Source: a virus. Taken from it: a stretch of DNA of 64,000 bases. Of this stretch, positions 2,547-59,045 are shown piece after piece. The translations under genes were made by a program, and so were the position numbers. A model generated the notes under the pieces. That model saw nothing but the letters and a program-made list of their open reading frames with translations. It had not been told where the DNA came from and did not search any database. Within the stretch, counting starts at the first letter, position 1, and every line of letters begins with the position of its first letter. Where the stretch lies: the IMG/VR virus record IMGVR_UViG_3300042691_040362, positions 40,955 to 104,954 of that record; one strand, given 5' to 3'.

Positions 2547-2568
2547 GGGGAGTACACGCTCCCCTTTC
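2547..2568 (+). terminator. Terminator forming a hybrid with a promoter
   Basis: GGGGAG, 6-nt loop, CTCCCC, then TTTCAT. The loop and 3' arm contain the upstream box of the class I promoter at 2549. Confidence 0.8.
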
Positions 2569-2577
2569 ATATATTCA
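2549..2577 (+). promoter_or_regulatory. Class I promoter inside a terminator
   Basis: GGAGTACAC, 12 nt, TATATTCA, before the gene at 2599. The upstream box departs from consensus at several bases to fit the hairpin. Confidence 0.7.
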
Positions 2578-2598
2578 AGTAAATAAAAAAGATATATT

Positions 2599-3375
2599 AT
2601 GAAAAACCATTTCATTCCTATCGATAACAAAATCGATAAAGCAATTGCATTTGCTCAATCATTAGATAACAAATCGTTTCGTACACGAAACCGAATTAAA
2701 CAACCCTCAGCATATATTGATACGCTGAGTGTTGTTCAGAATCTACAACAACAAGGTTGGGAAATAACAGGAGTATGTGAACAACGCGGTAAAGATAGAA
2801 AAATATCAAACAACTATGTTCAATTGGAACACCCTGACTTTAAAATGATGAATAAAAACAAAGTCGAAGGTATATCAAATATCTATGTTTCAAATAGTTG
2901 CGACGGAAGAAAACCGCTTAATTTAGATTTCGGAATGTATCGTTTAGTTTGTTCAAACGGATTGATTCAACGTACCCCGTATATTGAACATAGAATTAAA
3001 CATACACCGCAAAGTATTGAACGATTGCCAATGATTATGCAAAGTGTAAATAGCGCAGCACAAAGAGTCCTTAAAAGATTCGATTCATTAAAAACAAAGG
3101 AATTGAAACCTGCACAGCTGGAGGAACTAGTAAATAAAGCAGCACGTTTAAGATTTGACGATGACGTGATGGATGCTTCTCAACTACTCACTGTATATCG
3201 AGATGAAGATAAAGGAAACGATTTATGGTCGGTATATAACAGGATTCAAGAAAATTTAATCAAAACAAATATGTTACTAGATCGTAACGGACGACCGTTA
3301 GCAGGAGTAAACGATGTTAAAAGCGACATTGTTTTAAATCAAGCATTATTTGGATTGATAGAAAATTATGCTTAA
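2599..3375 (+). CDS. DUF932-type protein, copy 1
   Basis: 258 residues. FGMYRLVCSNGLI at about 111-123 is the signature of DUF932 phage/plasmid proteins, preceded by VSNSCDGRKPL. A second conserved block, GNDLWSVYNRIQEN, lies near 212-225. It is a diverged duplicate of the next gene, with the same two blocks in the same order. DUF932 proteins are common in phages and plasmids; their biochemical role is not established, though location beside RecA-type genes fits DNA metabolism. Confidence 0.82.
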   Translation: MKNHFIPIDNKIDKAIAFAQSLDNKSFRTRNRIKQPSAYIDTLSVVQNLQQQGWEITGVCEQRGKDRKISNNYVQLEHPDFKMMNKNKVEGISNIYVSNSCDGRKPLNLDFGMYRLVCSNGLIQRTPYIEHRIKHTPQSIERLPMIMQSVNSAAQRVLKRFDSLKTKELKPAQLEELVNKAARLRFDDDVMDASQLLTVYRDEDKGNDLWSVYNRIQENLIKTNMLLDRNGRPLAGVNDVKSDIVLNQALFGLIENYA

Positions 3376-3381
3376 AAATTA

Positions 3382-3410
3382 GGATTACAAAATCAATTAT
3401 CATATATTTA
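3382..3410 (+). promoter_or_regulatory. Class I promoter
   Basis: GGATTACAA, 12 nt, TATATTTA, between the two DUF932 genes. Confidence 0.85.
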
Positions 3411-3432
3411 ATCAAACGAAAAAATAAAAGTT

Positions 3433-4233
3433 ATGCTAGATCTAAATTCAAACACATTCCTTAGTAAGGAGCAAATTAAATCAAAAGCAAATTCGATTTT
3501 TGCTACTAAAGGTGCTGAAAACACCTCACAACACTATTCACACATTCCAACATTCAAAATCATTGAAGATATGGAATTGTTAGGATGGAAAGTTTCTGAT
3601 GTTAAAGAGGTTAAAGCGCGTAAAAACGCTGGATTCCAAAAACATTTAGTTGTATTTCGTAATGAGGAAATTGTTATTGATGGTAAAGATGGAGACACAG
3701 TATTTCCACAAATCCTATTAACAAATAGTTCAGACGGAAAAAATGCATTTACATTCCGTGCCGGACTTTTCCGTCTTGTATGTGAGAATGGTTTAGTTAT
3801 TTCAACACAGGATTTTGCTGATTTAAAAATCAGACATATGGGTTATGACTTTGAAAAGTTACAGAAAACCATTACCAATATTGTTGAGAAACTTCCACTC
3901 ACAGTTGAGTCAATGAATCGTTTTAAAGAAACACAATTGGAGGAGGAACAAATCCTACAATTCGCTAAAGATGCACTTACAGTACGTTTCGGTGAAGAGG
4001 AAATGGAACGCATTACAATTGATTACACTACATTTATTCAACCAACACGTAGAGAAGATGCAGGAAATGACTTATGGTCAGTGTTTAACCGCATTCAAGA
4101 ACGAGTAATGGATGGAGATTTCCAATACAGTTATGCAGCCAAAATACGTAAAGCACGTAAAATCAAGAACTTCAATCAAGATTTAGATTTGAATTCAAGA
4201 CTATATGAGTTAGCTACCACATATTGCCTATAA
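3433..4233 (+). CDS. DUF932-type protein, copy 2
   Basis: 266 residues. Carries LLTNSSDGKNAF followed by FRAGLFRLVCENGLV near 108-122, and GNDLWSVFNRIQERV near 222-236, matching the preceding gene. Divergence between copies is large, so the duplication is old and both copies seem maintained. It has its own class I promoter and a hybrid terminator-promoter after it, so each copy is an independent transcription unit. Confidence 0.82.
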   Translation: MLDLNSNTFLSKEQIKSKANSIFATKGAENTSQHYSHIPTFKIIEDMELLGWKVSDVKEVKARKNAGFQKHLVVFRNEEIVIDGKDGDTVFPQILLTNSSDGKNAFTFRAGLFRLVCENGLVISTQDFADLKIRHMGYDFEKLQKTITNIVEKLPLTVESMNRFKETQLEEEQILQFAKDALTVRFGEEEMERITIDYTTFIQPTRREDAGNDLWSVFNRIQERVMDGDFQYSYAAKIRKARKIKNFNQDLDLNSRLYELATTYCL

Positions 4234-4243
4234 AAAATAAATT

Positions 4244-4272
4244 GGGGAGCTTGGACTACAAGTTCCCCTTTT
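4244..4272 (+). terminator. Terminator forming a hybrid with a promoter
   Basis: GGGGA, g, CTTG, 5-nt loop, CAAG, t, TCCCC, then TTTTA. CTTG/CAAG and the loop use the promoter upstream box. Confidence 0.85.
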
Positions 4273-4281
4273 ATATATTTA
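4253..4281 (+). promoter_or_regulatory. Class I promoter inside a terminator
   Basis: GGACTACAA, 12 nt, TATATTTA, before 4295. Near-perfect class I consensus even though it doubles as the hairpin loop and part of its 3' arm. Confidence 0.85.
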
Positions 4282-4294
4282 AAATAAAAAAGTT

Positions 4295-4726
4295 ATGGAA
4301 AAAGAATTTGTACCTTATGAACAAGCATTAGCTTTAAAAGAATTAGGATTTAATGAAGAGTGTTTAACATCTTATCATTATAATGGAACATTAATAGATA
4401 TGTGGAGTGCAGTGGGTTTTGTTACAAATAGTAGTTTAATAAACCCTGAACAATTTAATGCTAATAATAATTCTAAACTTTTAAAAGATTATATTGATAA
4501 TCCTTTTACAGCAGCACCAACATTCTCACAAGCATTTAGATGGTTTAGAGAGAAGTATAATTTACATGGGATAGTTTCATATTACGGAAAAAATCAATGG
4601 GATATAGAACTACTTGATTACAAAGGAAACCAATTAGTTGAAATAGAAAACAACACATTTTGGACTTATGAAGAAGCAGAACTTGCTTGTTTAAATAAAC
4701 TAATTGAAATTATAAAACAGAAATAA
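4295..4726 (+). CDS. Conserved phage hypothetical (YEQALALKELGF type)
   Basis: 143 residues. The start (YEQALALKELGFNE), the middle QAFRWFREKY (about 100-110) and the end YEEAELACLNKLIEIIK match a family often seen in Bacteroidetes and marine phages and prophages and annotated only as hypothetical. First gene of a four-gene run with overlapping stop/start codons (4295-5392). Function unknown. Confidence 0.75.
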   Translation: MEKEFVPYEQALALKELGFNEECLTSYHYNGTLIDMWSAVGFVTNSSLINPEQFNANNNSKLLKDYIDNPFTAAPTFSQAFRWFREKYNLHGIVSYYGKNQWDIELLDYKGNQLVEIENNTFWTYEEAELACLNKLIEIIKQK

Positions 4727-4902
4727 TGGAAGAAGAATTTACACCACCATCACAGGTAAACAGATTGGAAATAATCAATCACGCCAAAAACGATAAACCA
4801 GTAGGACGAATCCTTACTTTGTATAAGGAATTAGGACATTTTGAACACATTGAAGTAGTATATCAAGATAACGGAAAAACATTAAAAATATTTTTAGGAT
4901 GA
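4726..4902 (+). CDS. Small hypothetical protein
   Basis: 58 residues, starting on the last base of the previous stop (TAATG). Mixed alpha/beta, ending KTLKIFLG. Overlaps the next start as ATGATAA. Coupled reading frames support it as a real gene. Confidence 0.6.
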   Translation: MEEEFTPPSQVNRLEIINHAKNDKPVGRILTLYKELGHFEHIEVVYQDNGKTLKIFLG

Positions 4903-5057
4903 TAATAAGCATTATTGGAGGTACAGCAATTGTATTAAGTTTGATTGTACCATATTTTATAAAAAATAAACGAACCGGAAATTTTATTGGAGCAGTACTA
5001 GCTGCTTTTGCTTGTGGTTTGTTTTTAGGTGAATTAATTACTAAATATTTTTCATAA
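4899..5057 (+). CDS. Small membrane protein, two transmembrane helices
   Basis: 52 residues with two hydrophobic segments (about 2-19 and 30-47) joined by a basic turn (KNKRTG), a hairpin topology in the inner membrane. Start and stop both overlap neighbours. Function unknown; its position among early genes argues against a late holin. Confidence 0.65.
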   Translation: MIISIIGGTAIVLSLIVPYFIKNKRTGNFIGAVLAAFACGLFLGELITKYFS

Positions 5058-5392
5058 TGAGCGGAGGAGCATTTGATTATAATCAATCTCGCATTCAATA
5101 TATAATTGAAGGCATTGAAGAGGAAATTGAAAAAAATGGAAAGAAAATCGACTACGAACCGGGATACAAAAGATATGAATGGGAATCAGAATACCATTAC
5201 GAATATCCACCTGACATTATTGAGGAATTTAAAAATGGAATACGCATACTAAAACAAGCATATGTCTATGCTCAGCGAATTGATTGGCTACTATCAGGAG
5301 ATGATAGAGAAGATTCATTTCGTAAACGATTGAAAGAGGATTTAGCACAATTAAACCCACCTACTTTTTGGGGTGAAGAAAGCGGATACTAG
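5057..5392 (+). CDS. Conserved phage hypothetical (MSGGxFDY type)
   Basis: 111 residues. The MSGGAFDYNQ start is characteristic of a very widespread phage family of unknown role. Mostly helical and acidic, with a Tyr-rich centre (YEPGYKRYEWE). Last gene of the 4295 operon. Confidence 0.75.
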   Translation: MSGGAFDYNQSRIQYIIEGIEEEIEKNGKKIDYEPGYKRYEWESEYHYEYPPDIIEEFKNGIRILKQAYVYAQRIDWLLSGDDREDSFRKRLKEDLAQLNPPTFWGEESGY

Positions 5393-5420
5393 GATTACAA
5401 AATCTTTAGTTGTATATTTA
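5392..5420 (+). promoter_or_regulatory. Class I promoter
   Basis: GGATTACAA, 12 nt, TATATTTA; starts at the last base of the upstream TAG; drives 5436-6556. Confidence 0.85.
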
Positions 5421-5435
5421 GGTAAATAAAAAATT

Positions 5436-5801
5436 ATGGAAAGAATAGAAATTAATGGAGTATGGTATGTTAAAGAAGATACCATACAAAAAGAAAGTAC
5501 TATATTAGAGCCTACTCATTTTGAAGGATACTCTGTAGAAAATGATGATTTTATTTTTGAAGCAACTATTATATTTAAAGATGATGGTACTCCTTATTAT
5601 GGTATTACTATTGAATGTACTGATAAAAGATTCCCAGATAGGAATAATTGGAAAGTAGAACATTGGGATAATGATAATTGGTTAAGAGGTATATTAAACA
5701 ATAATCCTGATTCATGGAAAGAATTACCTGAAATGAGTAGTGGAGATATTCATTTTTTACAAACATTTTTACAATATTTAAAAGATAAAGAATGGTTATG
5801 A
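5436..5801 (+). CDS. Hypothetical protein
   Basis: 121 residues, acidic, with aromatic-rich segments (RNNWKVEHWDNDNW near 70-85). Leader ends AAATTATG. The stop overlaps the start of the next gene. No recognised domain. Confidence 0.65.
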   Translation: MERIEINGVWYVKEDTIQKESTILEPTHFEGYSVENDDFIFEATIIFKDDGTPYYGITIECTDKRFPDRNNWKVEHWDNDNWLRGILNNNPDSWKELPEMSSGDIHFLQTFLQYLKDKEWL

Positions 5802-6046
5802 AAGAAACACTTGAAGAAGCTGCTGAAAAGTATGCTAAACAATTTGATTATGCAGAAGATTCTTCACCACCAATAGATTTTGTTGAAGGTGCTAAATGGC
5901 AACAAGAAAGAATGTATAGTGAGGAAGAAGTATTAGAGTTATTACTAAAACATCAATCTGATTATAGGAGTTCCGTAAGAAATACATCTCCTTTGGATTG
6001 GAGTTTTGATATTAAAGATTGGTTTGAACAATTTAAAAAGAAATAA
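5798..6046 (+). CDS. WFEQFKKK-family small protein, copy 1
   Basis: 82 residues. Begins MKETLEEAAEKY, has the core FVEGAKWQQERMYSEEE and ends DWFEQFKKK. An in-frame ATG six bases upstream is possible, but this start follows the GGTTATG leader used by many neighbours. Two close relatives lie at 7527 and 13261 and parts of it at 6048 and in the end of the 6859 gene. The family is common in Bacteroidetes phages; role unknown. Confidence 0.75.
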   Translation: MKETLEEAAEKYAKQFDYAEDSSPPIDFVEGAKWQQERMYSEEEVLELLLKHQSDYRSSVRNTSPLDWSFDIKDWFEQFKKK

Positions 6047-6047
6047 A

Positions 6048-6260
6048 ATGGGAAATCTAAAACAAAAACTTACCACTGAGGAATGGGACGAATTAATAAT
6101 CTATACTAAACCAGGATTTGTTGAAAAACGGATTGAATTATCTATTCAAGAGGCAGCAGAAAAATACACATCAACATCTTTTAACAAACAAGATCTGTAT
6201 GATGGGTTTATAGCTGGAGCAAAATGGATGATGGAAAACATTAAAACAAACTCAAAATGA
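6048..6260 (+). CDS. Small protein related to WFEQFKKK family
   Basis: 70 residues. The segment IQEAAEKY...DGFIAGAKWMMENIK is a diverged form of the family core found in the gene before, without the C-terminal WFEQFKKK. An upstream in-frame ATG at 6006 exists but would overlap the previous gene by 41 bases. Confidence 0.65.
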   Translation: MGNLKQKLTTEEWDELIIYTKPGFVEKRIELSIQEAAEKYTSTSFNKQDLYDGFIAGAKWMMENIKTNSK

Positions 6261-6556
6261 CAGCAGACGAATTCAACACCAAATATAAAGACTATTTAGA
6301 GGAAGGACATTACGGACTAGATATAGACATTCCATCCATAACTAAATATCTAGATGAAATATTTCAGGGCCTAATTAAAATACCTGGATTTCAATATTCA
6401 CAAATAAAAGATAAATACTCTAATTGTAGATTCTATACTAACTTACTTGAGGTATTAGGACATAAATTAGGAGCAATTGTATCAAATGAGGTGGAACGTA
6501 GAGTTTCTATGATGATGGAAGTATATTATGATCACTTAAATTATAAGAAAGATTAG
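6257..6556 (+). CDS. Hypothetical protein
   Basis: 99 residues starting MTADEFNTKYKDYLEEGHYGLDI. The regular helical pattern and EVERRVSMMMEVYYDHL end suggest a compact helical protein. Overlaps the preceding stop by four bases; ends at a class I promoter. Related sequences are common unannotated phage ORFs. Confidence 0.65.
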   Translation: MTADEFNTKYKDYLEEGHYGLDIDIPSITKYLDEIFQGLIKIPGFQYSQIKDKYSNCRFYTNLLEVLGHKLGAIVSNEVERRVSMMMEVYYDHLNYKKD

Positions 6557-6584
6557 GAATGCAAAATCTTTAATTGTATATTTA
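6556..6584 (+). promoter_or_regulatory. Class I promoter
   Basis: GGAATGCAA, 12 nt, TATATTTA, before 6599. Confidence 0.75.
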
Positions 6585-6598
6585 AAATAAAAAAGGTT

Positions 6599-6862
6599 AT
6601 GAACGATTGGTCAGCATTTAATGTAAAGTATTTAGCGGTACCATTTACTATGTTGGTATTTGGTGTAGTAATAGGATTTGGTATATCCGATTCCAAAAAG
6701 AAACCAACTAAAAAATACCCAATAGAAGTACAAACTCATTGGTCAACAGATCAAGGTGCATCTTATCCAATTATGGAAGCAGATAGTGTTATAGGTGATA
6801 CTATATACAAAGATGGTATTAGTATAGTAAATAAAAACATTTTAAATATAACATTTAAATGA
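6599..6862 (+). CDS. Small single-pass membrane protein
   Basis: 87 residues. One hydrophobic helix at about 11-29 (a VPFTMLVFGVVIGFGI core) followed by a basic stop-transfer stretch (DSKKKPTKKY) and a polar tail. Likely inner membrane, tail outside or inside not decidable. Overlaps the next gene by four bases. Confidence 0.65.
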   Translation: MNDWSAFNVKYLAVPFTMLVFGVVIGFGISDSKKKPTKKYPIEVQTHWSTDQGASYPIMEADSVIGDTIYKDGISIVNKNILNITFK

Positions 6863-7530
6863 AAAACATACACGTAATAAACCAAAACATCTACATCACT
6901 AATGATGAAGAAATTAAAGAAGGGGATTGGGTTATTTATAAAAATAAAGTTTTTAAGATAGGAATAGGTGATAATGAACTTTTTCATTTAAGTAAAAAAA
7001 TCATCCTAACAACAGACCAAGATTTAATCAAAGATGGTGTACAAGCTATTGAAGATGATTTTCTTGAATGGTTTGTCCAAAATCCAAGTTGTGAGGAGGT
7101 TGAAGTACAATGCAGATATAATTTTTATGCAGGTCAAGATTTAACACATTACAAAATAATCATTCCAAAAGAATCTAAACTAATTAATAACTGTCCTAAG
7201 TGTGGTTTAGATTTAATCATAAGAGAACATTGTACACCAATTTGTACAGATATTGATTGCCGTGGTATTATACTTAGTAATGAAACATTAAGAGAATGGG
7301 CATCAAAAAAAGAATCTAAACAAGAAACACTTGAAGAAGCAATGGAAAGTTATTTAGATTCTCCTACGCCCCACTCATACAAAAGAGCAGTAAAATTTGG
7401 TGCTAATTGGCAACAAAAACAGATATTAGAATTTCTTTATTTAGAAATAACAGAACGTAGAGATTATTCAGCATCTAAAATGTGTGAAAAGGTAATAGAG
7501 TTTATTGAACAATTAAATACTAAGAAATGA
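6859..7530 (+). CDS. Zinc-ribbon protein with fused WFEQ-family segment
   Basis: 223 residues. N-terminal half (1-105) has a beta-rich pattern with EGDWVIYKNKVFKIG. Cysteines at about 113-136 (CPKCG, then HC, C, C) form a zinc-ribbon-like cluster. From about 160 the KQETLEEAMESYL and VKFGANWQQKQ elements match the core of the neighbouring small-protein family, so this looks like a fusion. Function unknown. Confidence 0.65.
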   Translation: MKNIHVINQNIYITNDEEIKEGDWVIYKNKVFKIGIGDNELFHLSKKIILTTDQDLIKDGVQAIEDDFLEWFVQNPSCEEVEVQCRYNFYAGQDLTHYKIIIPKESKLINNCPKCGLDLIIREHCTPICTDIDCRGIILSNETLREWASKKESKQETLEEAMESYLDSPTPHSYKRAVKFGANWQQKQILEFLYLEITERRDYSASKMCEKVIEFIEQLNTKK

Positions 7531-7790
7531 AAGAAACACTTGAAGAAGCTGCTGCTAGACATTTTAATAAAGAAGATTTAGTTGAAGGTGTTAATATTCA
7601 ATATGTACTTCAATGTGCTTTTATTGAAGGTGCTAAATGGCAACAAGAAAGAATGTATAGTGAGGCAATTGAGTTTGCTGAGTGGATTAGAATTAAAGAT
7701 TTCCAAACTGCATCTAAAGATAATTGGATTGGTTTAGATATGAAATACTTTACAACAGAAGAATTGTTTGAACAATTTAAAAAGAAATAA
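7527..7790 (+). CDS. WFEQFKKK-family small protein, copy 2
   Basis: 87 residues. MKETLEEAAARH start, FIEGAKWQQERMYSE core and ELFEQFKKK end. At DNA level the ends and core are almost identical to the copy at 5798, while the parts between them differ completely, a mosaic pattern. Confidence 0.75.
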   Translation: MKETLEEAAARHFNKEDLVEGVNIQYVLQCAFIEGAKWQQERMYSEAIEFAEWIRIKDFQTASKDNWIGLDMKYFTTEELFEQFKKK

Positions 7791-7791
7791 T

Positions 7792-7989
7792 ATGAAGCAA
7801 ACAGCAGTTGAGTGGTTGGTTGAAAGTTTAACGGAATTAGGTGTTGATTTATTAAGTCATAACTTAGAGATTCAACAAGCCAAAGCAATGGAGAAGGAGC
7901 AGCATCAGCAAACTGCAGCACACTTTTTTCCTACATCATTAAAGAAAGAAGATTTTGAACAATATTATACAGAAACTTATGAAAAATGA
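7792..7989 (+). CDS. Conserved phage hypothetical (TAVEWL type)
   Basis: 65 residues starting MKQTAVEWLVESL. The IQQAKAMEKEQ middle and YYTETYE end are typical of a family found in very many Bacteroidetes and marine phages. An upstream in-frame ATG at 7768 lies inside the previous gene and is less likely. Helical; role unknown. Confidence 0.75.
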   Translation: MKQTAVEWLVESLTELGVDLLSHNLEIQQAKAMEKEQHQQTAAHFFPTSLKKEDFEQYYTETYEK

Positions 7990-8189
7990 ACATAGGACAG
8001 GAAAGAATAATAAAGAAATACGCTTGGTTACCAACTTGGGTTTGGGTTGGGAAACAAGGAAATAAAGATAAGTGGATTTGGTTGAGACCATTTTACGAAA
8101 AACAAAAATATGTTAAGTGGAATGATTGGCAGGAAGGTGTGGGAGACCATTGGAAGACAAGTTGGAAATGTGAACGTCAATATATTTAA
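7986..8189 (+). CDS. Small Trp-rich hypothetical protein
   Basis: 67 residues with ten tryptophans (for example LPTWVWVGKQGNKDKWIW and WNDWQEG), basic overall. This looks like the phage family in which a WLP-VWVG motif precedes a short beta sheet. Overlaps the stop of the previous gene. Confidence 0.65.
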   Translation: MNIGQERIIKKYAWLPTWVWVGKQGNKDKWIWLRPFYEKQKYVKWNDWQEGVGDHWKTSWKCERQYI

Positions 8190-8207
8190 AATTATAACAA
8201 ATAAACT

Positions 8208-8573
8208 ATGGCAATATTCGGAAGTAGTTGGAAAGAAGATAGTGAAGACGAAATCAATATGTTTTCACATTGGAAAGATGATGAAGATGACTCTGGTCCT
8301 GAACCAAACGAGGCACTAAAAGTAGCTAAAGAAAGATATGATGCAATGCTTGATGCTAAACCACCTTACGTAAGTGATGATTTTCAAATTGGACCTGATG
8401 GTGCATATGAGGATGTAAGTGATTGGGATATAACATTAATGGATGGAATTGAGTACGAAAGTTGGGATGAAATATATGAAGACTATGTTGGTGAGGCAGA
8501 TCTACACGAGTTTTTACAATGGCTAAAGGAAAATTTTCAAGTACCTAATAAACTAGGACCACAAAATTCTTAA
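8208..8573 (+). CDS. Acidic hypothetical protein
   Basis: 121 residues, strongly acidic (many Asp/Glu, for example the DDEDDSGPEPNE segment near 26-37). The next class I promoter begins inside its last six codons. No recognised family; DNA-mimic behaviour is possible for such acidic early proteins but nothing specific supports it. Confidence 0.65.
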   Translation: MAIFGSSWKEDSEDEINMFSHWKDDEDDSGPEPNEALKVAKERYDAMLDAKPPYVSDDFQIGPDGAYEDVSDWDITLMDGIEYESWDEIYEDYVGEADLHEFLQWLKENFQVPNKLGPQNS

Positions 8574-8584
8574 TTGTATATTTA
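8556..8584 (+). promoter_or_regulatory. Class I promoter inside a coding end
   Basis: GGACCACAA, 12 nt, TATATTTA; the upstream box encodes the last residues of the 8208 gene. Confidence 0.8.
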
Positions 8585-8597
8585 AAATAAAAAAGTT

Positions 8598-8852: not shown

Positions 8853-8855
8853 TTA

Positions 8856-8884
8856 GGATTACAAAACCTTTAATTGTATATTTA
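8856..8884 (+). promoter_or_regulatory. Class I promoter
   Basis: GGATTACAA, 12 nt, TATATTTA; drives the operon 8901-10417. Confidence 0.85.
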
Positions 8885-8900
8885 AATAAAAATAAGAGTT

Positions 8901-12564: not shown

Positions 12565-12590
12565 GGGTAGTTCATTAGGACTACCCTATT
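12565..12590 (+). terminator. Terminator forming a hybrid with a promoter
   Basis: GGGTAGT, 8-nt loop, ACTACCC, then TATTTTTATTT. The 3' arm and loop are the class I upstream box. Confidence 0.85.
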
Positions 12591-12606
12591 TTTATTTGTA
12601 TATTTA
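12578..12606 (+). promoter_or_regulatory. Class I promoter inside a terminator
   Basis: GGACTACCC, 12 nt, TATATTTA, only 4 nt before the ATG at 12611, so the mRNA may be leaderless or start close to the ATG. Confidence 0.8.
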
Positions 12607-14575: not shown

Positions 14576-14599
14576 GGGGACGTAAACGTCCCCTTTTTT
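14576..14599 (+). terminator. Intrinsic terminator
   Basis: GGGGACG, loop TAAA, CGTCCCC, then six T. Perfect 7-bp stem, separate from the next promoter. Confidence 0.92.
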
Positions 14600-14608
14600 A
14601 TTTTACTA

Positions 14609-14637
14609 GGACTACAAGGTTTACATTCGTATATTTA
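14609..14637 (+). promoter_or_regulatory. Class I promoter
   Basis: GGACTACAA, 12 nt, TATATTTA, before 14657. Confidence 0.85.
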
Positions 14638-14656: not shown

Positions 14657-14809
14657 ATGAAAACTAAAACGAAACAACAGATACTAGCTGAGATGCTACA
14701 AAAAGAATTAAACTCAACAGAACAAATGTGGGAAGAAGGTAAATCACATGCCTTCATAATTGGATATTTAAAAGGTCTAATCAAAATAACCATTTCAGAA
14801 CTAAAATGA
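14657..14809 (+). CDS. Small helical protein
   Basis: 50 residues, helical and basic at the start (MKTKTKQQILAEMLQKELNS) with a hydrophobic end (AFIIGYLKGLIKITISEL). Overlaps the SWIM-domain gene by four bases. Confidence 0.62.
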   Translation: MKTKTKQQILAEMLQKELNSTEQMWEEGKSHAFIIGYLKGLIKITISELK

Positions 14810-19748: not shown

Positions 19749-20087
19749 ATGAAAAACGAAAATCAAAACATCGAAACAAAACAATTAGGTAGACCTGTTA
19801 ATCCGAATTCAGTTCGTCAACAACGATTAGCAGAGTTAGAAGCAAAACGTAATAACGGAGAGTTAAAACGAGGACGTCCGGTAAACGGGACATCAGTACG
19901 TCAAGCTAGATTAGCTGAGTTAGCAGCGAAAGCTGAATTAAACGGAGGCGTTATTAAAAGAGGTCGTCCCTCAAATGGCGAATCAGAACGTCAAAAACGA
20001 TTAGCTGAGCGTGCTGCTAAAGCAGCGAGTGGAATTGAAATTAAACGCGGTCGACCAGCAATGGTTAAAGCAGAAGTTAGTAAGTAA
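19749..20087 (+). CDS. Repeat AT-hook DNA-binding protein
   Basis: 112 residues built from near-identical units of about 29 residues: GRPVNxxSVRQxRLAELxAK. The (K)RGRP AT-hook cores are at about 14, 41, 71 and 100. AT-hooks insert into the minor groove of AT-rich DNA, so this is a candidate phage nucleoid or silencing protein. Two class I promoters and a strong terminator indicate high expression. The RQxRLAELAAK linkers are amphipathic helices. The RecA-like and the 58319 proteins carry the same RGRP element singly. Confidence 0.8.
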   Translation: MKNENQNIETKQLGRPVNPNSVRQQRLAELEAKRNNGELKRGRPVNGTSVRQARLAELAAKAELNGGVIKRGRPSNGESERQKRLAERAAKAASGIEIKRGRPAMVKAEVSK

Positions 20088-20110
20088 GTTGTGTATGTTT
20101 TAAGTAATAG

Positions 20111-20135
20111 GGTAGTCCGTTAGGACTACCTTATT
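20111..20135 (+). terminator. Terminator forming a hybrid with a promoter
   Basis: GGTAGTCC, loop GTTA, GGACTACC, then TTATTTT. Perfect 8-bp stem; the 3' arm is the class I box. Confidence 0.88.
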
Positions 20136-20151
20136 TTATCTCATATATTTA
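20123..20151 (+). promoter_or_regulatory. Class I promoter inside a terminator
   Basis: GGACTACCT, 12 nt, TATATTTA, before 20197. Confidence 0.82.
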
Positions 20152-20456: not shown

Positions 20457-20482
20457 GGGTAGGTCATTAGGCCTACCCTATT
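20457..20482 (+). terminator. Terminator forming a hybrid with a promoter
   Basis: GGGTAGG, 8 nt, CCTACCC, then TATTATATTT; the 3' arm lies in the class I box. Confidence 0.82.
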
Positions 20483-20498
20483 ATATTTAGTATATTTA
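20470..20498 (+). promoter_or_regulatory. Class I promoter inside a terminator
   Basis: GGCCTACCC, 12 nt, TATATTTA, before 20521. Confidence 0.78.
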
Positions 20499-21601: not shown

Positions 21602-22219
21602 ATGAATTTAACAGAGATCTACATTAACGTATTTTTTGAGAATTTTTTTAAAGAACTACAAGAAGAATACCCATTAAATGAGGAATCAAATCCAGCTCTT
21701 CAAGAATTGCTCACTAAAGCAAACGAGCTTGTTTTTAAAAAGTTTGGTATCAATCCAAGTAATAAAGTTTATTTTATAGCAGGTTCGGCAGCCCTATATC
21801 TTTTCCCAGTTTTAAGAGACAAATTGGATTTACGTAGTACAGTAGGTGATTTAGATATTATTATTCCAGAAGCTAAATATTGGAAACAAGCAGGTCTCGA
21901 GGGACAAACCATCTATCGTCCTAAAGAAGACAAGCGTATTGAGGTGTTTACTGAGTGGGATCCTGCTAAAGCAGGGGGTGATTATGAAAATATAAAAGTA
22001 AGAAGTACCTCAGATATTCTAAAAGATTCATTTCAATCTCAAGGCTATTGGTTCATGAGTTTAATAGATATTTTTGATTATAAAATGAAGTTAGGTCGTC
22101 CTAAAGAAAAGGATATTCTTGATAAAATTAAAGCATATCAAGACGGAACTATTACCGATAAAATTAGTTTATTAAGACAATTACTTTCTTATTATAAAAA
22201 AGAAGATATTAAAAACTAG
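21602..22219 (+). CDS. Nucleotidyltransferase-fold protein
   Basis: 205 residues. FIAGSAALYLFP (58-69) and VGDLDIIIP (81-89) are the GS and D-x-D motifs of the DNA polymerase beta-like nucleotidyltransferase superfamily, with a further acidic strand RIEVFTEWD near 108-116. The C-terminal half is helical. Members modify proteins, RNA or small molecules by NMP transfer. It is not clearly of a known toxin or antitoxin subgroup. A class I promoter follows at its stop. Confidence 0.72.
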   Translation: MNLTEIYINVFFENFFKELQEEYPLNEESNPALQELLTKANELVFKKFGINPSNKVYFIAGSAALYLFPVLRDKLDLRSTVGDLDIIIPEAKYWKQAGLEGQTIYRPKEDKRIEVFTEWDPAKAGGDYENIKVRSTSDILKDSFQSQGYWFMSLIDIFDYKMKLGRPKEKDILDKIKAYQDGTITDKISLLRQLLSYYKKEDIKN

Positions 22220-44804: not shown

Positions 44805-45571
44805 GCAAAATTAAGCATTCATATGATCGAATTTTAGAAATATCTGACGACCATAAACAAATTACATTGCCTGATTCCAGGTATTACAGACGAAATGGTG
44901 AATATTACCCTTCAGTAACATATGTATTAAACTTATATCCTAAAGGGAAATTTTTTGAAGACTGGTTAAAAAAAGTAGGTTATGCTTCTGAATATATCGT
45001 TAAAAAAGCATCTGAAGAAGGTACTCAAGTACATGAATTATGTGAAGCATATTTAAATGGTGAAGAATTATATTTTCTATCTCACTCAGGAAAACCCCAA
45101 CATCATCCAGATGTATGGCAAATGTTTTTACGTTTTGTAGATTTTTGGGAAGAATTCACTCCAAAATTAATTGAAACCGAAGTACATTTATTTTCAGATG
45201 AACTTAAAGTAGCAGGAACCTGCGATTTAATTGTTGAAATAAACGATAAATTATGGTTGTTAGACATTAAAACATCTAACCAAATGCATTCAACTTATGA
45301 ACTTCAAACCGCGGTTTATGGTCAATGTTATCAAGAATGCTATAATAAAAAGGTAGATCATTATGGAATATTATGGTTGAAATCATCCAAACGTAAATCA
45401 TCAAAAGGTAAAATGCAAGGCAAAGGATGGGAAATTTTAGAATCAGAAAGAACATTTGAAGAAAACATTGATATCTTCAAAACTATTAAAAAACTATTTG
45501 ATTTAGAAAATCCTACAGCCTCTCCATCATTCGAGTCATTTAGAACTACTGTAAAACGAAAAGATCTATAA
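44801..45571 (+). CDS. PD-(D/E)XK nuclease, RecB/Cas4-like
   Basis: 256 residues. Catalytic pattern: AGTCDLIVEI (D142), LWLLDIKTS (D155, K157) and QTAVYGQCY (Q169, QxxxY). This is the RecB-type exonuclease signature, as found in Cas4, AddB and phage exonucleases. No Fe-S cysteine set is visible. Coupled to primase, so likely to act in replication or recombination, for example end processing with the RecA-like protein. Confidence 0.8.
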   Translation: MSKIKHSYDRILEISDDHKQITLPDSRYYRRNGEYYPSVTYVLNLYPKGKFFEDWLKKVGYASEYIVKKASEEGTQVHELCEAYLNGEELYFLSHSGKPQHHPDVWQMFLRFVDFWEEFTPKLIETEVHLFSDELKVAGTCDLIVEINDKLWLLDIKTSNQMHSTYELQTAVYGQCYQECYNKKVDHYGILWLKSSKRKSSKGKMQGKGWEILESERTFEENIDIFKTIKKLFDLENPTASPSFESFRTTVKRKDL

Positions 45572-45580: not shown

Positions 45581-45593
45581 TGAGAGAGAATTG

Positions 45594-45622
45594 GGATTCC
45601 TAAATTCTTTTTTGTATATTAA
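45594..45622 (+). promoter_or_regulatory. Class I promoter
   Basis: GGATTCCTA, 12 nt, TATATTAA, before 45627, downstream of a class II site. Confidence 0.72.
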
Positions 45623-51951: not shown

Positions 51952-51952
51952 A

Positions 51953-53574: not shown

Positions 53575-53583
53575 TATTTATAG
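53575..53583 (+). promoter_or_regulatory. Class II (late) promoter
   Basis: TATTTATAG, 2 nt before 53586; last base differs from the others. Confidence 0.6.
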
Positions 53584-53585
53584 GT

Positions 53586-54293
53586 ATGGAACGTATTAAA
53601 CAACTTATTCGAGAAGTACTTTCTACTCCACCCAAGAAAGAATCATGTAACTGTGGTTGCCATTCTTGTGAAAACGTAGGAAATAAAGGTCCAGTTCTAA
53701 ACGAAAGCTTAAATGCTAAAATCGTAATGACTGAAAACATGAAATATCATGTTGACAACAGATTACCACTTACAGAAAACACATTTCGTTATGGCTCACA
53801 AGCATTCTTAGATTTATGGGCTGAAGCTCGTTATCTATATTCTCGTAATGCTATTCATGTAAATGATGACGATAAAGAAATTTTACTTGAAACTAATTTA
53901 GGTGAATACGGAATGTATGAAGGTAAAAAAGTGCCTTTAGATTTACCTATGTTAGAAGATGATTCATTAGCGGCTGATGAAGAGGAAATAGCTGACGAAC
54001 CTATATCTGAAACTGATAAAAAGAAAAACCCACCAATTGGAAAACCAAAACGTGGTGGTTCTAAAAAGTTTTATGTATATGTTAGAGACAAAGGTAAAAT
54101 TAAAAAAGTATCATTCGGGGGAACTACCGGATTGTCTGTTAAAATAAATGATCCTAAAGCAAGACAAGCTTTTGCCGCTCGCCATAGATGTGCTCAAAAA
54201 ACAGATAGGACAAAACCTAGTTATTGGTCATGTAGAATCGGTCGTTATTGGAAGCAATTAGGAGGAGCAAAAAACTTTAGCGGATATTGGTAG
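53586..54293 (+). CDS. Tagged DUF5872 protein
   Basis: 235 residues. Helical tag (MERIKQLIREVLSTPP), a CNCGCHSC cysteine cluster (21-28), LNES site near 40, and a C-terminal DUF5872-type domain from about 147 (PPIGKPKRGGSKKFYVYVRD, ARQAFAARHRCAQKTDRTKP, YWSCRIGRYWKQLGG). DUF5872 is frequent in T4-like marine phages, function unknown. A hairpin plus late promoter begins just before its stop. Confidence 0.75.
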   Translation: MERIKQLIREVLSTPPKKESCNCGCHSCENVGNKGPVLNESLNAKIVMTENMKYHVDNRLPLTENTFRYGSQAFLDLWAEARYLYSRNAIHVNDDDKEILLETNLGEYGMYEGKKVPLDLPMLEDDSLAADEEEIADEPISETDKKKNPPIGKPKRGGSKKFYVYVRDKGKIKKVSFGGTTGLSVKINDPKARQAFAARHRCAQKTDRTKPSYWSCRIGRYWKQLGGAKNFSGYW

Positions 54294-54313
54294 GAAATCG
54301 GCCTTACCAATAT
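54284..54313 (+). terminator. Hairpin overlapping a late promoter
   Basis: ATATTGGTAGG, 7 nt, CCTTACCAATAT with one bulge; the 3' arm runs into TATTTATAA. Not followed by a T-run, so terminator function is uncertain. Confidence 0.55.
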
Positions 54314-54319
54314 TTATAA
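54311..54319 (+). promoter_or_regulatory. Class II (late) promoter
   Basis: TATTTATAA then TAAAAT, 11 nt before the homing-nuclease gene. Confidence 0.82.
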
Positions 54320-54330
54320 TAAAATAAAAT

Positions 54331-54957
54331 ATGGCGTATGTTTATATTGTAATCAATAAAGTTAATGGGAAAAAATATATTGGTTCCTCTCGAAAATCCC
54401 AAATAGATGAAAATTATTATGGTAGCGGCAAAGCAGTAAAAGATGCTCTAAAGAAATATGGTAAAGAAAATTTTATAAGAGAAATACTGTGGGAGGGTGA
54501 AGGAAATGCTCGCGATATAGAAACATGTTATTTAATAAAATTTAATGCTTCTAAGAATCCAATGTTTTATAATATGACTAATGATGCTAGAGGAAATGAT
54601 CTTCATAAAGAAGAAACAAAACTCACTGTTAGTGAAAAACTAATTGGGAGAAAATTTACGAAAGAGAGATGTGACAAAATATCTAAAGCTAAGAAAGGAT
54701 CCACAACCTCTAAAAAAGGCAAACCTGATGGCCCCAAACCAGGAGTATCAGAAGCTCATAAAGGTAGAATTAGTCCTAATAAAGGAAAAGGAAATCAAGT
54801 AGCTTTATATACAATATCTGAAGAATATATCAGAACTTATTCTAGTTACTATGACCTAGCTATTGATCTCCAAATAAATCCAGAAACAGTAAGATGTCAA
54901 CTTATTGGAAAATCTCAAACTATTAAAAATAAGCAATATAAAGCGCAATATGTATGA
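54331..54957 (+). CDS. GIY-YIG homing endonuclease (Seg-like)
   Basis: 208 residues. GIY-YIG core: YVYIVINKVNGKKYIGSS (3-20), YYGSGKAVKDALKKYG, and E64. The middle has NUMOD3-type repeats (EAHKGRISPNKGKGN near 141-155) and the end an IENR1-like helix-turn-helix (YDLAIDLQINPETVRCQLIG). This matches free-standing phage homing endonucleases, which cut cognate phage DNA and copy themselves. Intact, with its own promoter and no intron around it. Confidence 0.88.
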   Translation: MAYVYIVINKVNGKKYIGSSRKSQIDENYYGSGKAVKDALKKYGKENFIREILWEGEGNARDIETCYLIKFNASKNPMFYNMTNDARGNDLHKEETKLTVSEKLIGRKFTKERCDKISKAKKGSTTSKKGKPDGPKPGVSEAHKGRISPNKGKGNQVALYTISEEYIRTYSSYYDLAIDLQINPETVRCQLIGKSQTIKNKQYKAQYV

Positions 54958-54972
54958 TAGAAATGTGGTAAT

Positions 54973-55350
54973 ATGAAACTATTAGAACTTAAAAAACTTA
55001 TTCAAGAAGAACTACGTATAATACGTGAAAGTTCTGCTTCAAAACTTTATAAAGTAGAAGGACTATTAGTAACAAATACTGATAAAAAAACACAATCCCA
55101 AATACTTTCAGATATTAGATCAATCCCAGGTATCACAACAGTAGATGCTCAAGAATATACTCCTCGTTTACCTAAAAAAGGATACACATACGATAGATTA
55201 ACCATCAAGGTTGATCCATACCCATACATTAAAAAAGACGGTAAATTTGATATAGAAACGATTAATCAAGTAATCGCAAGTATTGGTGGGATTAAAGGAA
55301 TAGTTAAATTTAGAGTTGATAACCCCCAATTAATTAATATTGGGATATGA
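54973..55350 (+). CDS. Tagged ferredoxin-fold-like protein
   Basis: 125 residues. Two-part helical tag (MKLLELKKLIQEELRIIRES) with IIRE-S. The body has a beta-alpha-beta-beta-alpha-beta layout (YKVEGLLVTN, QILSDIRSIPGITTVD, TIKVDPYPYI, IKGIVKFRVD) of a ferredoxin-like fold. Function unknown. Confidence 0.7.
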   Translation: MKLLELKKLIQEELRIIRESSASKLYKVEGLLVTNTDKKTQSQILSDIRSIPGITTVDAQEYTPRLPKKGYTYDRLTIKVDPYPYIKKDGKFDIETINQVIASIGGIKGIVKFRVDNPQLINIGI

Positions 55351-55730
55351 TTAAGTTAATTAATCTTCTAGAACAAATTCTTCAAGAGAAAGCTGATCGC
55401 TGTAAGCGTATTGCTGATCGTAAGTACGATAAACCATCTGCTTACAAATCAGGTGCTATCGTTAGATGTCGTAAAGGTAATATTTGGAAGGATTTAAAAG
55501 AAGAAGAATTAAATGAAAAAGTAAAAGAAACACTTCGTACTTGGTTTAAACGTAAAGGTGCACCAGGTAAAGAAGGCGGATGGGTTGATTGTAATACTTG
55601 TAGAGACGGAAAATGTAAATCATGTGGTAGAAAAGAAGGTGAAAAACGTTCTAAATATCCTTCATGTCGTCCTACACCAGCTCAATGTAAAACACCTGGT
55701 AAAGGTAAAAAATGGGGGAAAACAAAATGA
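55347..55730 (+). CDS. Tagged DUF5872-like basic protein
   Basis: 127 residues. Tag MIKLINLLEQILQEKAD; RCKRIADRKYDKPSAYKSGA near 19-38; TLRTWFKRKGAPGKEGGWVD then CNTCRDGKCKSCGRKEGEKR. Related in motifs to DUF5872-type proteins of T4-like phages. Very basic with CxxC and CxxxC clusters, so probably binds metal or nucleic acid. Confidence 0.73.
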   Translation: MIKLINLLEQILQEKADRCKRIADRKYDKPSAYKSGAIVRCRKGNIWKDLKEEELNEKVKETLRTWFKRKGAPGKEGGWVDCNTCRDGKCKSCGRKEGEKRSKYPSCRPTPAQCKTPGKGKKWGKTK

Positions 55731-55996
55731 AAAAAGAATTTAATATAACTGAGTGGGCACTCAAAAATAGACTAAAAGAACATGAAGGTGAAGAATATCC
55801 TCCTTACATGTATTCACCTGTAGGTTTTAGCTGCGCAGTATGTAAATATCATTATATAAAAGATGATAAACATATGTGTAAAAATAAACAATACCAAGAG
55901 TATAAAGGTACTGCTGAATTGGTTGATGATGAAGGAAATCAAATTAAAGATCCTTCAAAATGGTGTTCAAATTGGTTTTTACCTAAAGGAGAATGA
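55727..55996 (+). CDS. Cysteine-cluster protein
   Basis: 89 residues. Start at 55727 overlaps the previous stop as ATGA; an upstream ATG at 55712 is possible. Cysteines in FSCAVCKYHYIKDDKHMCKN and SKWCSNWF resemble a high-potential iron-sulfur or zinc site (C-x-x-C-x12-C...C). Known as conserved unknown in related phages. Confidence 0.7.
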   Translation: MKKEFNITEWALKNRLKEHEGEEYPPYMYSPVGFSCAVCKYHYIKDDKHMCKNKQYQEYKGTAELVDDEGNQIKDPSKWCSNWFLPKGE

Positions 55997-56250
55997 AGCC
56001 ATACACAGACATAGAAGTTACAGACAAATATGTTATTCGTGAATTTAACGAAAATATAGATCCAATTGAGCTTCTTTGGCATCGCGATAATGAAGATCGC
56101 ACATTAGAAATAGTTGGTGAAACAGATTGGAAAATACAATTAGATAATAAATTACCAATCTTACTAGAAAGTCATATATTTATACCAAGACACGCATGGC
56201 ATCGTGTTATTAAAGGAACAGGAACATTAAAATTAAAAATATACAAATGA
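55993..56250 (+). CDS. Cupin-fold-like protein
   Basis: 85 residues. ELLWHRDNEDRTLEIVGETD then IFIPRHAWHRVIKGTGTL has the paired His and Pro-x-x-x-W-H of small cupins. Metal-binding beta barrel likely; activity unknown. Overlaps genes on both sides by four bases. Confidence 0.68.
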   Translation: MKPYTDIEVTDKYVIREFNENIDPIELLWHRDNEDRTLEIVGETDWKIQLDNKLPILLESHIFIPRHAWHRVIKGTGTLKLKIYK

Positions 56251-56780
56251 AATCAACTGAATTAAGACAACTTATCCGCGAATCAATCAATGAATATATT
56301 CGTGAAATCGATGAAGCAGGAACAAAAGCTGGATTACAAGCTAAAATAGAAGCAACTGAAGGTGCTATTAGCAAACGTGAAAAAATGGCTAATATGGAAG
56401 GCATTGATGAAGCTTATCATGAAATGCTTGATAAAGGCAAAATGAAAGAAATTGGTAATGAAGTTAAGGCATTAAAAAAAAGTTTAGATAAATTGAAAAA
56501 ACAATTAGATAAACTTAATTCAAAAGGTACTAAAACTGAAAAACCTGAATCTGAAGAAAAAGAAATTGTTGATGAAGTAAATATTGATGAAACATTTCCT
56601 GAATCTGGTGCTCAACTAGAAGAAGATAATAATGAGGATTTACCCCCTGCACCATCAGAAGAGGAAATAGCAGCTAATCAAATATACGAAATGCTCCATA
56701 TGCAAAAACTAGCAGGTATTATTTCAGAATCTGAATATGTTGCTAAAGTAAAAGAAGTAGAAAAAGCATCTAAAAAATAA
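56247..56780 (+). CDS. Tagged coiled-coil protein with MQKLAGII end
   Basis: 177 residues. Tag MKSTELRQLIRESINEYIRE containing LIRE-S and then IDE-A. Long Lys/Glu coiled coil (about 35-95), acidic stretch, and C-terminal MLHMQKLAGIISESEY near 148-163, as in 58319. Looks like a small scaffold or internal head protein; inference. Confidence 0.7.
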   Translation: MKSTELRQLIRESINEYIREIDEAGTKAGLQAKIEATEGAISKREKMANMEGIDEAYHEMLDKGKMKEIGNEVKALKKSLDKLKKQLDKLNSKGTKTEKPESEEKEIVDEVNIDETFPESGAQLEEDNNEDLPPAPSEEEIAANQIYEMLHMQKLAGIISESEYVAKVKEVEKASKK

Positions 56781-56834
56781 CATATAGACTGATTCATAGC
56801 CGGTCGCTCGAAAGAGACAAAACATCCTGGATCT

Positions 56835-56870
56835 GTGGCCCATTTTTCGAAAGAAAGGTGGGCCACTCTA
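56835..56870 (+). terminator. Strong hairpin terminator
   Basis: GTGGCCCA, 16 nt, TGGGCCAC, then TCTAATT; the T-run is poor, so an RNA-stability hairpin is the alternative. The 55 nt before it (56781-56834) also fold locally and hold no gene. Confidence 0.65.
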
Positions 56871-56874
56871 ATTG

Positions 56875-56903
56875 GGATTTCAAAATAAAAAATTTTATAT
56901 TTA
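56875..56903 (+). promoter_or_regulatory. Class I promoter
   Basis: GGATTTCAA, 12 nt, TATATTTA, only 4 nt before 56908: the oxidoreductase may be expressed from a very short leader. Confidence 0.75.
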
Positions 56904-56907
56904 GCAC

Positions 56908-58269
56908 ATGAAAAAAATCGTAATCGTAGGAGCAGGTGTAGCAGGTATTAACGCTGCTACCAAATTAGTAGACAATGGATATCCAGGACATCTAATTACA
57001 GTTATAGATAAAGGTAGCGATCCATATAATCGCTTACCTGAACAGGTAATGGAAGGCATGTTAGGAGCTGGAGGTTGGAGTGATGGTAAATTAACATACC
57101 ATACTGCAATTGGAGGAGTATTATCAAAATACTGTGGTGAAGAAAAAGCTATGGAATTAATGGATCAAGTAATTAAAAACTTTACTCGTTTCCACCCTAA
57201 ACCAGAAGAAATATTTATGTCTGATCCTCAAGAGGAACCAGATTTTATTAAACCACATTTTGGACTAAGACTATTTCCAGTGTGGCATATTGGTTCAAAT
57301 TATCTACATGAAATTGCTATTAATTGGTATGCTTACTTAGCTGATAAAGGTATTAACTTTATGTGGGAAACGGAAGTTACATATATTGATTTTGATAATC
57401 CTCATGGATATGTGTTAATAGAAGGATTTAAAAACCAAGGTGGAGGAGAAAAAACACATTACATGACTACTGGAGATAAATTAATATTCGCAGTGGGGAA
57501 GAGTGGTATCGACTTTGGTAAAGCACTAGCAGATGAATACAAATTACCAACTGAACCTAAATCAGTGCAAATAGGTGTACGTTTTGAAGCACCACAAAAA
57601 TATTTTCAAAAATTAATTGATGTATCATACGATTTTAAATTATATCAAAAATTCGATAACGTATCTCTACGTTCATTTTGTACAAATAATAATGCAGCTT
57701 ATGTGGCTGTTGAGAACACTTATGGGGATGTAAGTTATAATGGACATGCTAAGAAAGGCGAAGAATATCGTAACGATATGACTAACTTTGGTATCCTAAT
57801 GGAAATTAAAGGTATTGAAAATCCATTTGAATGGAGTAGAGAATTAGTTTCTAAAATCCAAATTGATAGTAAAGGACTATATTATTCTCCTTCCCGTAAA
57901 CCAGGACAAACATCAGAAGGAAATATAGTAACAGCTACTCCAATAAGTTTAGATGGGTTAACTCATTTAATTGAACCTTCATTTAATGGTTATTTCAAAT
58001 ATGTATGGGATTTTATACAAAATATGAATGAAGTATTTGAATTTGGTGATGATTGGGGAATGTATATTCCTGAGGTAAAATATTTATCTCCTGAACCATT
58101 AGTTGATTACAAGAATTTAGCATTAGTAGACTATCCAAATGTACACTTTGTAGGTGATGCTTTATCTGCTCGTGGTATTACAGTAAGTGGAGCACATGGA
58201 ATTTATGTTGCAGAAAATTTACTACAACATAAACTTGATGAATATCCAGATTTTGTAGAACATTATTAA
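56908..58269 (+). CDS. FAD-dependent oxidoreductase
   Basis: 453 residues. N-terminal Rossmann dinucleotide motif VIVGAGVAGINAATKL (5-20) then TVIDKG. GAGGWSDGKLTYHTAIGG near 53-70 and C-terminal HFVGDALSARGITVSGAHGI near 410-430 fit the NAD(FAD)-dependent dehydrogenase group. It lacks the tag of its neighbours and has an early-type promoter. Substrate unknown; unusual in phages. Confidence 0.82.
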   Translation: MKKIVIVGAGVAGINAATKLVDNGYPGHLITVIDKGSDPYNRLPEQVMEGMLGAGGWSDGKLTYHTAIGGVLSKYCGEEKAMELMDQVIKNFTRFHPKPEEIFMSDPQEEPDFIKPHFGLRLFPVWHIGSNYLHEIAINWYAYLADKGINFMWETEVTYIDFDNPHGYVLIEGFKNQGGGEKTHYMTTGDKLIFAVGKSGIDFGKALADEYKLPTEPKSVQIGVRFEAPQKYFQKLIDVSYDFKLYQKFDNVSLRSFCTNNNAAYVAVENTYGDVSYNGHAKKGEEYRNDMTNFGILMEIKGIENPFEWSRELVSKIQIDSKGLYYSPSRKPGQTSEGNIVTATPISLDGLTHLIEPSFNGYFKYVWDFIQNMNEVFEFGDDWGMYIPEVKYLSPEPLVDYKNLALVDYPNVHFVGDALSARGITVSGAHGIYVAENLLQHKLDEYPDFVEHY

Positions 58270-58318
58270 ACTTTACTATAATTCATTATATGTATAATAA
58301 AAACATATTTAAAACAAA

Positions 58319-58984
58319 ATGGAATTAAGAAAATACATCCGCGAAATGGTTGAGACTGAGCTTGATGAAATGGCTCGTATCTCTACTAACATCAAAATTG
58401 GTGATCCTGAAAAAGCATCCATTGCAAAAGAGCTATATGCTGGAACTTGGTATGGTGATATGATTGATTATGTAGAGGAAGCAGGAGACGTTGGTATTCC
58501 TCAACCTGAACTAGCAAGAATGTTAGGTAAATCAGGCCAACAAGCAATCAATCCCAAAGTTAGAGATTTCCTTGAATCAAACATCTTCACTAAAGGTGAG
58601 TTATCAGTAGCTAAAAAAGAAAAACCAGAAGCTAGTGGTATTAAAGGTCGCCCAACCTCAGAAAAAACATTAATGGCTAAAGATGTTAATTCTAAAATGG
58701 AAGCAGATGCTAACTATAAACCATCAGAAGATGAATTAGCAATATTGGGGGCTGAGTTTATTGAAAAACTTAGAGCACGTGTTAAAGGTACTTTAAGACG
58801 TGGTCGTCCTGCACTTCCTTCTAAAGCAAAAGATGGCATGATAGCAGCTATGAAAAAAATAGGAGATGAAGATATAGACATGGATGGGGATATTGATGAT
58901 GAGGATTTGGAAGATATTGCTGAATCAACTTCAATTAATGAATCGTTTACTCGTATGCAGAAATTAGCAGGAATTATTAAATAA
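58319..58984 (+). CDS. Tagged AT-hook protein with RMQKLAGII end
   Basis: 221 residues. Tag MELRKYIREMVETELDEMAR; a shared domain (NIKIGDPEKASIAKELYAGT, GIPQPELARMLGKSGQQAIN) found also at 59854; AT-hook-like KGRPTS and RRGRPALP; an acidic EDIDMDGDIDDEDLEDI stretch; IAES, INES sites and C-terminal FTRMQKLAGIIK. A late-type TATGTATAA variant lies about 30 nt upstream. Candidate DNA-binding internal virion protein. Confidence 0.72.
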   Translation: MELRKYIREMVETELDEMARISTNIKIGDPEKASIAKELYAGTWYGDMIDYVEEAGDVGIPQPELARMLGKSGQQAINPKVRDFLESNIFTKGELSVAKKEKPEASGIKGRPTSEKTLMAKDVNSKMEADANYKPSEDELAILGAEFIEKLRARVKGTLRRGRPALPSKAKDGMIAAMKKIGDEDIDMDGDIDDEDLEDIAESTSINESFTRMQKLAGIIK

Positions 58985-59008
58985 ATTATATTAAACAAAT
59001 TTTAAATT

Positions 59009-59038
59009 GAGGACTTGGATTACCAAGTCCTCTTTTTT
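59009..59038 (+). terminator. Terminator forming a hybrid with a promoter
   Basis: GAGGACTTGG, loop ATTA, CCAAGTCCTC, six T. Perfect 10-bp stem whose loop is the core of the class I box. Confidence 0.92.
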
Positions 59039-59045
59039 ATATTCA
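59017..59045 (+). promoter_or_regulatory. Class I promoter inside a terminator
   Basis: GGATTACCA, 12 nt, TATATTCA, before 59065; the T-run of the terminator lies in the spacer. Confidence 0.85.

Follow-up and report, generated by a model that had tools for sequence, protein, structure and literature searches.

Features of the locus

The window analysed here is 64,000 nt long and covers bases 40955-104954 of a virus record of 104,954 bases, which represents an uncultured T4-like phage. The terminase and the baseplate proteins of the record are T4-like. Judged by the terminase, the closest isolates are the Flavobacterium phages immuto (62% identity), and in the phage collection immuto is the nearest cultured relative of the record; a megablast search with 10 kb of sequence against phage records gave no match.

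The window contains six short stretches in which a hairpin and a promoter motif occupy the same bases, a marginal seventh one, and promoters of the same kind without a hairpin (Table 1). One of the fused elements lies before the first of two adjacent genes for DUF932 proteins and another one after the second. The gene before site 20123 encodes a small, AT-hook-like protein with four KRGRP repeats. The original prediction had placed six such elements in the window, and all six were found where it had placed them; the whole record has nine strong sites, so the arrangement is broader than claimed.

Table 1. Fused elements, comparison promoters and neighbouring genes (window positions unless stated otherwise; in the text, sites are named by the first base of the box)
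Feature	Positions	Strand	Hairpin	Box	Tail after stem	-7 box	Fold (kcal/mol)	z
Fused element 1	2547-2577	+	2547-2564, GGGGAGT-ACAC-GCTCCCC	2549-2557, GGAGTACAC, 5' arm plus loop	TTTCA, short	2570-2577, TATATTCA	-13.0	-4.3
Fused element 2	4244-4281	+	4244-4268	4253-4261, GGACTACAA, straddles loop		4274-4281, TATATTTA	-18.6	-5.2
Fused element 3	12565-12606	+	12565-12586, GGGTAGTTC-ATTA-GGACTACCC	12578-12586, the whole 3' arm	TATTTTTATTTG	12599-12606	-17.5	-5.5
Fused element 4	20106-20151	+	20106-20135	20123-20131, GGACTACCT, within 3' arm	weak; TTTTATCTCA overlaps stem end	20144-20151	-19.5	-6.5
Fused element 5	20457-20498	+	20457-20478	20470-20478, GGCCTACCC, 3' arm	TATTATATTTAG, weak	20491-20498	-16.6	-3.8
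Fused element 6	59009-59045	+	59009-59032, GAGGACTTGG-ATTA-CCAAGTCCTC	59017-59025, straddles loop	T-run	59038-59045, TATATTCA	-17.7	-5.5
Marginal seventh site (weak, outside the nine)	45582-45622	+	AT-rich, around box	45594-45602, GGATTCCTA	T-run	45615-45622, TATATTAA	-10.0	
Fused sites outside the window (3 of the nine strong sites)	record 2586, 29112, 30315	+						
Free-standing promoter (example)	3382-3410	+	none	GGATTACAA		3403, TATATTTA	-0.8	
Terminator followed by free promoter (example)	14576-14637	+	14576-14593	14609		14630-14637		
Two adjacent DUF932 protein genes	2599-3375, 3433-4233							
KRGRP-repeat protein gene	19749-20087							

The promoter class

The promoters belong to a class with about 50 copies in the record, every copy being on the coding strand. 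The class consensus is (C/T)TAGGA(T/C)TACAA, a 12-nt spacer and TATATTTA, with the motif core GGATTAC-N14-TATATTTA. An iterated position matrix was run over the whole record at a threshold of 8 bits and gave 55 forward and no reverse matches, the expectation computed from first-order shuffles being 0.2 per strand. The box G precedes TATATT, i.e. the beginning of TATATTTA, by exactly 21 nt. The original prediction had stated that this spacing is identical to that of free-standing copies, and it is indeed 21 nt at each of the six sites.

In Flavobacterium johnsoniae the -7 element is TAHHTTTG, and its last base lies at -5 (PMC6847099). The phage -7 box, TATATTTA or TATATTCA, agrees with TAHHTTTG/TAnnTTTG except for the last base, which is A and not G. 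Aligning the two elements places the box G at -33. The sequence at this position is TAGG or TTGG in the record, TTTGG in relatives and GTTGC in immuto, and because the latter two occupy the same position we read the box as a putative elaborated form of the Bacteroidetes -33 element. No member of the Sigma70_r2 or Sigma70_r4 families was found in the record, which may be incomplete. Sigma-70 promoter prediction returned fewer promoters than in shuffled sequences and is uninformative for this window. Searching genome contigs with the free-box pattern gave 7 single matches in scattered taxa, which we took as background and which thus point to no host; the register-b hairpin pattern had 0 matches in genome contigs.

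We note that the promoter boxes also overlap coding sequence. Of 52 promoters in the record, 18 use the G of a stop codon as part of their box, the codon being the in-frame TAG that ends the upstream open reading frame (TAG|GATTAC); such cases are found at window positions 1134, 5392, 6556, 11309, 11783, 13920, 15114 and 15482, among others.

Hairpins at the promoters

The six window sites are predicted to fold, as RNA, with free energies of -13.0 to -19.5 kcal/mol and with z-scores of -3.8 to -6.5 against dinucleotide shuffles, whereas four free-standing control promoters gave values of 0 to -5.3 kcal/mol (z -0.7 to +1.1). In the whole record, 9 of 53 motif matches had a free energy of -12 kcal/mol or lower; when flanks and spacer were shuffled around the fixed box, 0.2 were expected. 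An independent terminator scan listed + strand terminators at 2547, 4244, 12564, 20457 and 59009, the site at 20111 being listed on the opposite strand only. By our reading of the list, the record has about 16 intergenic terminator-like hairpins, nine of which coincide strongly and one weakly (45594) with a promoter, while 3 lie closely before a free promoter and 3 stand alone.

The position of the box within the hairpin varies. The original prediction had described the box as forming the loop and the 3' arm, which does not hold in general. Measured from the start of the box, the dyad centre is at about -2.5 at three sites (12578, 20123 and 20470), where the box forms the 3' arm. It is at about 3 to 3.5 at 4253 and 59017 as well as at 2586, 29112 and 30315 of the record, where the box straddles the loop, and at 6.5 at 2549, where the box makes up the 5' arm plus loop. 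Relatives add further centres at -7.5, -5, -3.5 and 7.5. Since one promoter geometry is found with many hairpin registers, we suggest that the combination of promoter and hairpin arose several times.

The fused sites have a stable GC-rich hairpin and, after the stem, a U-rich tract. The latter was predicted as a T-run in the spacer, and the spacers are T-rich as a group: at spacer positions 13-18 the fused sites of the related phages have on average 4.1 T in 6 positions as compared to 2.6 at free promoters (p 8e-12), and in the record alone the values are 4.2 and 2.9 (p 0.004). At 2549 (TTTCA), 20123 and 20470 the T-runs are short or weak, and some of the terminators may thus be weak. A stop codon is located 6-35 nt before the fused sites and a start codon 4-45 nt past the -7 box. 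The view that a terminator overlaps the next promoter is thus supported by the proximity of stop codons, the GC-rich stems, the T-rich spacers, the retained box and spacing, and the position of the start codons.

Covariation and base-pair bias

The register found most often is represented by 28 distinct sequences, which are 94% paired; both sides change in 6 of 10 pairs. The covariation score is 0.351 as compared to 0.230 for shuffled and at most 0.222 for slid alignments. Most of the 28 sequences were retrieved with a pattern that fixes the inner stem, so it is the outer pairs that carry weight; the 9 sequences found without the inner-stem pattern retain the stem, some of them with inner changes such as CTCGG/CCGAG.

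A hairpin formed by the RNA of the coding strand predicts an excess of G-U pairs, whereas a DNA dyad predicts none. Selecting stems by RNA folding would favour G-U, hence the stems were picked by a strand-symmetric rule with no preference between G-U and A-C. Among the mismatches G-U was found 44 times and A-C 13 times (p 5e-5). The covariation and G-U figures come from related, non-independent sequences and the p-values are indicative; the figures support a hairpin that would act at the RNA level of the coding strand.

Distribution among related phages

One hairpin register is present in 44 IMG/VR stretches. The relatives L005 and L006 contain fused sites homologous to site 59017, and in the stems of these one pair goes from A-U through G-U to G-C. 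Orthologues of the KRGRP-repeat protein occur in contigs L134, L128, L131 and L154, and each is followed by a fused element; three of the four contigs have a hairpin sequence of their own, and the next gene is different in all. Elsewhere the promoter stays and the hairpin is absent, as in the comparison of record position 45207 with L153, where the upstream genes are 78% identical.

The promoters of immuto carry a different, diverged box. Seven of the 33 fold at -11.5 kcal/mol or lower (0.09 expected), and 6 of these 7 hairpins overlap the box, the one at 149758 lying further upstream. Fused sites of immuto have their -7 boxes at 22092, 25512, 33345, 64522, 67985 and 69590. UUCG loops are seen at some fused sites of immuto. 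The UUCG form occurs in 27 IMG/VR stretches, two of which are immuto itself, and although the search pattern allowed the two variable stem positions to mismatch, they agree with one another in each of the 18 distinct copies. There are several registers and two boxes with one promoter geometry, which argues for repeated selection rather than for the spread of one sequence.

Several further cases are worth mentioning. In immuto (NC_055915.1, 64499-64657) the annotated coding sequence KNV73_gp156 starts upstream of the -7 box of a fused element (64522), and the real start probably lies downstream of the annotated one. A related virus (L015/L113, a 163,030-base record) has the promoter form TTTGGCYTYC...GATGTTATATTTA, and its fused forms include a GGCC-TTCG-GGCC hairpin. 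In L114 a single GGCTCGG..CCGAGCC hairpin has a promoter-like motif on each strand (4319 on +, 4326 on -), the one on the + strand being weak. In L152 there are hairpins over the box without a U-tract at 14790 and 16526 (tails TTAACA and TAACT), and these are perhaps not terminators.

Possible function of the fused elements

The case for the fused element is made up of the motif, the hairpin, the T-enrichment, the covariation, the recurrence and the gene context; from these we infer both termination and initiation of transcription at the fused sites. We consider it probable (roughly 0.8) that the element is a bifunctional signal, in which an intrinsic terminator lies within the region of -33 box and spacer of a promoter of the Bacteroidetes type. 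As DNA, it would provide the -33 box, with its G at -33, and the -7 box TATATTTA or TATATTCA, and transcription would start about 5 nt beyond, the start of Bacteroidetes promoters being located 4-5 nt past the -7 element. As RNA, it would form a GC-rich hairpin whose 5' arm, loop or 3' arm includes the -33 box, and the U-rich stretch after the hairpin would double as the promoter spacer. The original prediction put the end and the restart of transcription within about 30 nt; the predicted end of the upstream RNA is nearer to the predicted start, at about 12-20 nt before it. Because of this short distance, a terminating polymerase would cover the promoter, and a terminating and an initiating polymerase would be unable to sit on the element together.

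It is tempting to extend the nested terminator-promoter to a hand-off device, in which the polymerase would finish the upstream RNA, remain bound to the DNA and begin again at that very element, although we regard this extension as doubtful. Once E. coli RNA polymerase has terminated at an intrinsic terminator in vitro, it often does not leave the DNA and is able to start again from promoters close by (PMC6978380; also PMC6978322), and the effect is expected to depend on the distance between terminator and promoter (PMC6978380), which here would be the 12-20 nt mentioned above. On the other hand, recycling and independent recruitment are indistinguishable from sequence, and most members of the promoter class lack a terminator. 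If hand-off were true, the polymerase would release the upstream RNA inside the promoter, pick up its initiation factor while on the DNA, and the expression of the next gene would be coupled to the transcription of the previous one. Genome compactness is the likely driver of the arrangement, and it is more certain than polymerase reuse, since promoter boxes overlap stop codons as well; some tens of bases would be saved per junction.

The elements could also be mobile cassettes of the PeSL (promoter early stem-loop) kind, kept mainly as recombination junctions between gene modules, but this we consider improbable. In five contigs a common upstream gene and a fused element are followed by different genes, and only one flanking gene is common to 54 of the 76 fused pairs with a homologous neighbour. 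Among free-standing promoters however this is at least as frequent (95 of 114 pairs), and with this control gene shuffling does not appear as a role specific to the fused sites. Moreover, the hairpin sequences differ at homologous sites, so their identity is not what is preserved.

Slightly less probable still is the view that the hairpins are terminators only and that the promoter motif inside them is an unused relic or a coincidence. The fused boxes, at about 29-38 bits, score below most free ones and often have C instead of A at box position 7, and because of these two features the fused sites may be weaker promoters. Nevertheless, G0, G1 and C6 of the box, the 21-nt spacing and TATATT are retained at every fused site, with scores far above chance. 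The median distance from the -7 box to the start codon is similar at fused and free promoters (17.5 vs 22 nt), and in immuto hairpin and promoter are again combined, there with another box. Finally, the least probable alternative is that the inverted repeats act on the DNA as binding sites of a dimeric regulator or of a polymerase accessory factor: the box is nearly palindromic in some relatives (TTGGnnnnCCAA), but the dyad centre has no fixed place with respect to the box (-7.5 to +7.5), G-U is favoured over A-C among coding-strand mismatches, T-rich tails are enriched, UUCG loops are present and the sites lie after stop codons.

The usual view is of terminators and promoters as separate parts placed end to end, whereas in the proposed nested terminator-promoter, which recurs in a group of viruses of Flavobacterium-type bacteria, most of the bases (of about 45 nt) are common to both. 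For annotation this means that both signals may be present in a single short intergenic stretch, and for synthetic biology it suggests compact part designs. With immuto, which is cultured on Flavobacterium sp. LMO8, the recycling idea that comes from in vitro work could be examined during infection.

Comparison with known systems

The predicted distance in the fused element would be among the tightest known between a natural terminator and a promoter. The original prediction knew of no named element like it. There is however a named, if looser, precedent in the PeSLs, composite promoter-terminator motifs of T4-like phages that have been credited with gene shuffling (Arbiol 2010 and Comeau 2014, as cited in PMC5931544 and PMC4503421); beyond PeSLs, no natural bacterial or phage precedent for an overlapping terminator and promoter was found in the literature searched.

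The Bacteroidetes sigma-ABfr promoter (TTTG at -33, TAnnTTTG at -7) resembles the promoter of the fused element in the -7 element, seen here as TATATTTA, and in the position of the box G at -33; it differs in the last -7 base, and the extended box GGATTAC is no host consensus. The -33 motif of F. johnsoniae is a weak one (PMC6847099). Intrinsic (Rho-independent) terminators have the same GC-rich stem, short loop and U-rich tail just past the stop codon, whereas the tail of the fused element is bounded by the promoter spacer and is short at several sites. Post-termination recycling (PMC6978380) predicts an effect of the terminator-promoter distance, which makes it relevant here, but it is an in vitro phenomenon of E. 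coli with no named sequence element.

The PeSLs are similar in that an intergenic stem-loop terminator and a promoter occur together in a T4-like phage. We measured the first 50 kb of phage RB49 and found that the -35 boxes begin 11-23 nt past the stem, i.e. the two parts adjoin without overlap. In RB49 the parts thus stand side by side, whereas the phage described here has its -33 box within the hairpin and a T-run as spacer. The promoters differ as well, the PeSL promoter being of the sigma-70 early type (TTGACA/TATAAT) and the one described here GGATTAC-N14-TATATTTA. We conclude that the fused element is a real, recurrent and tighter variant of the PeSL-type composite.
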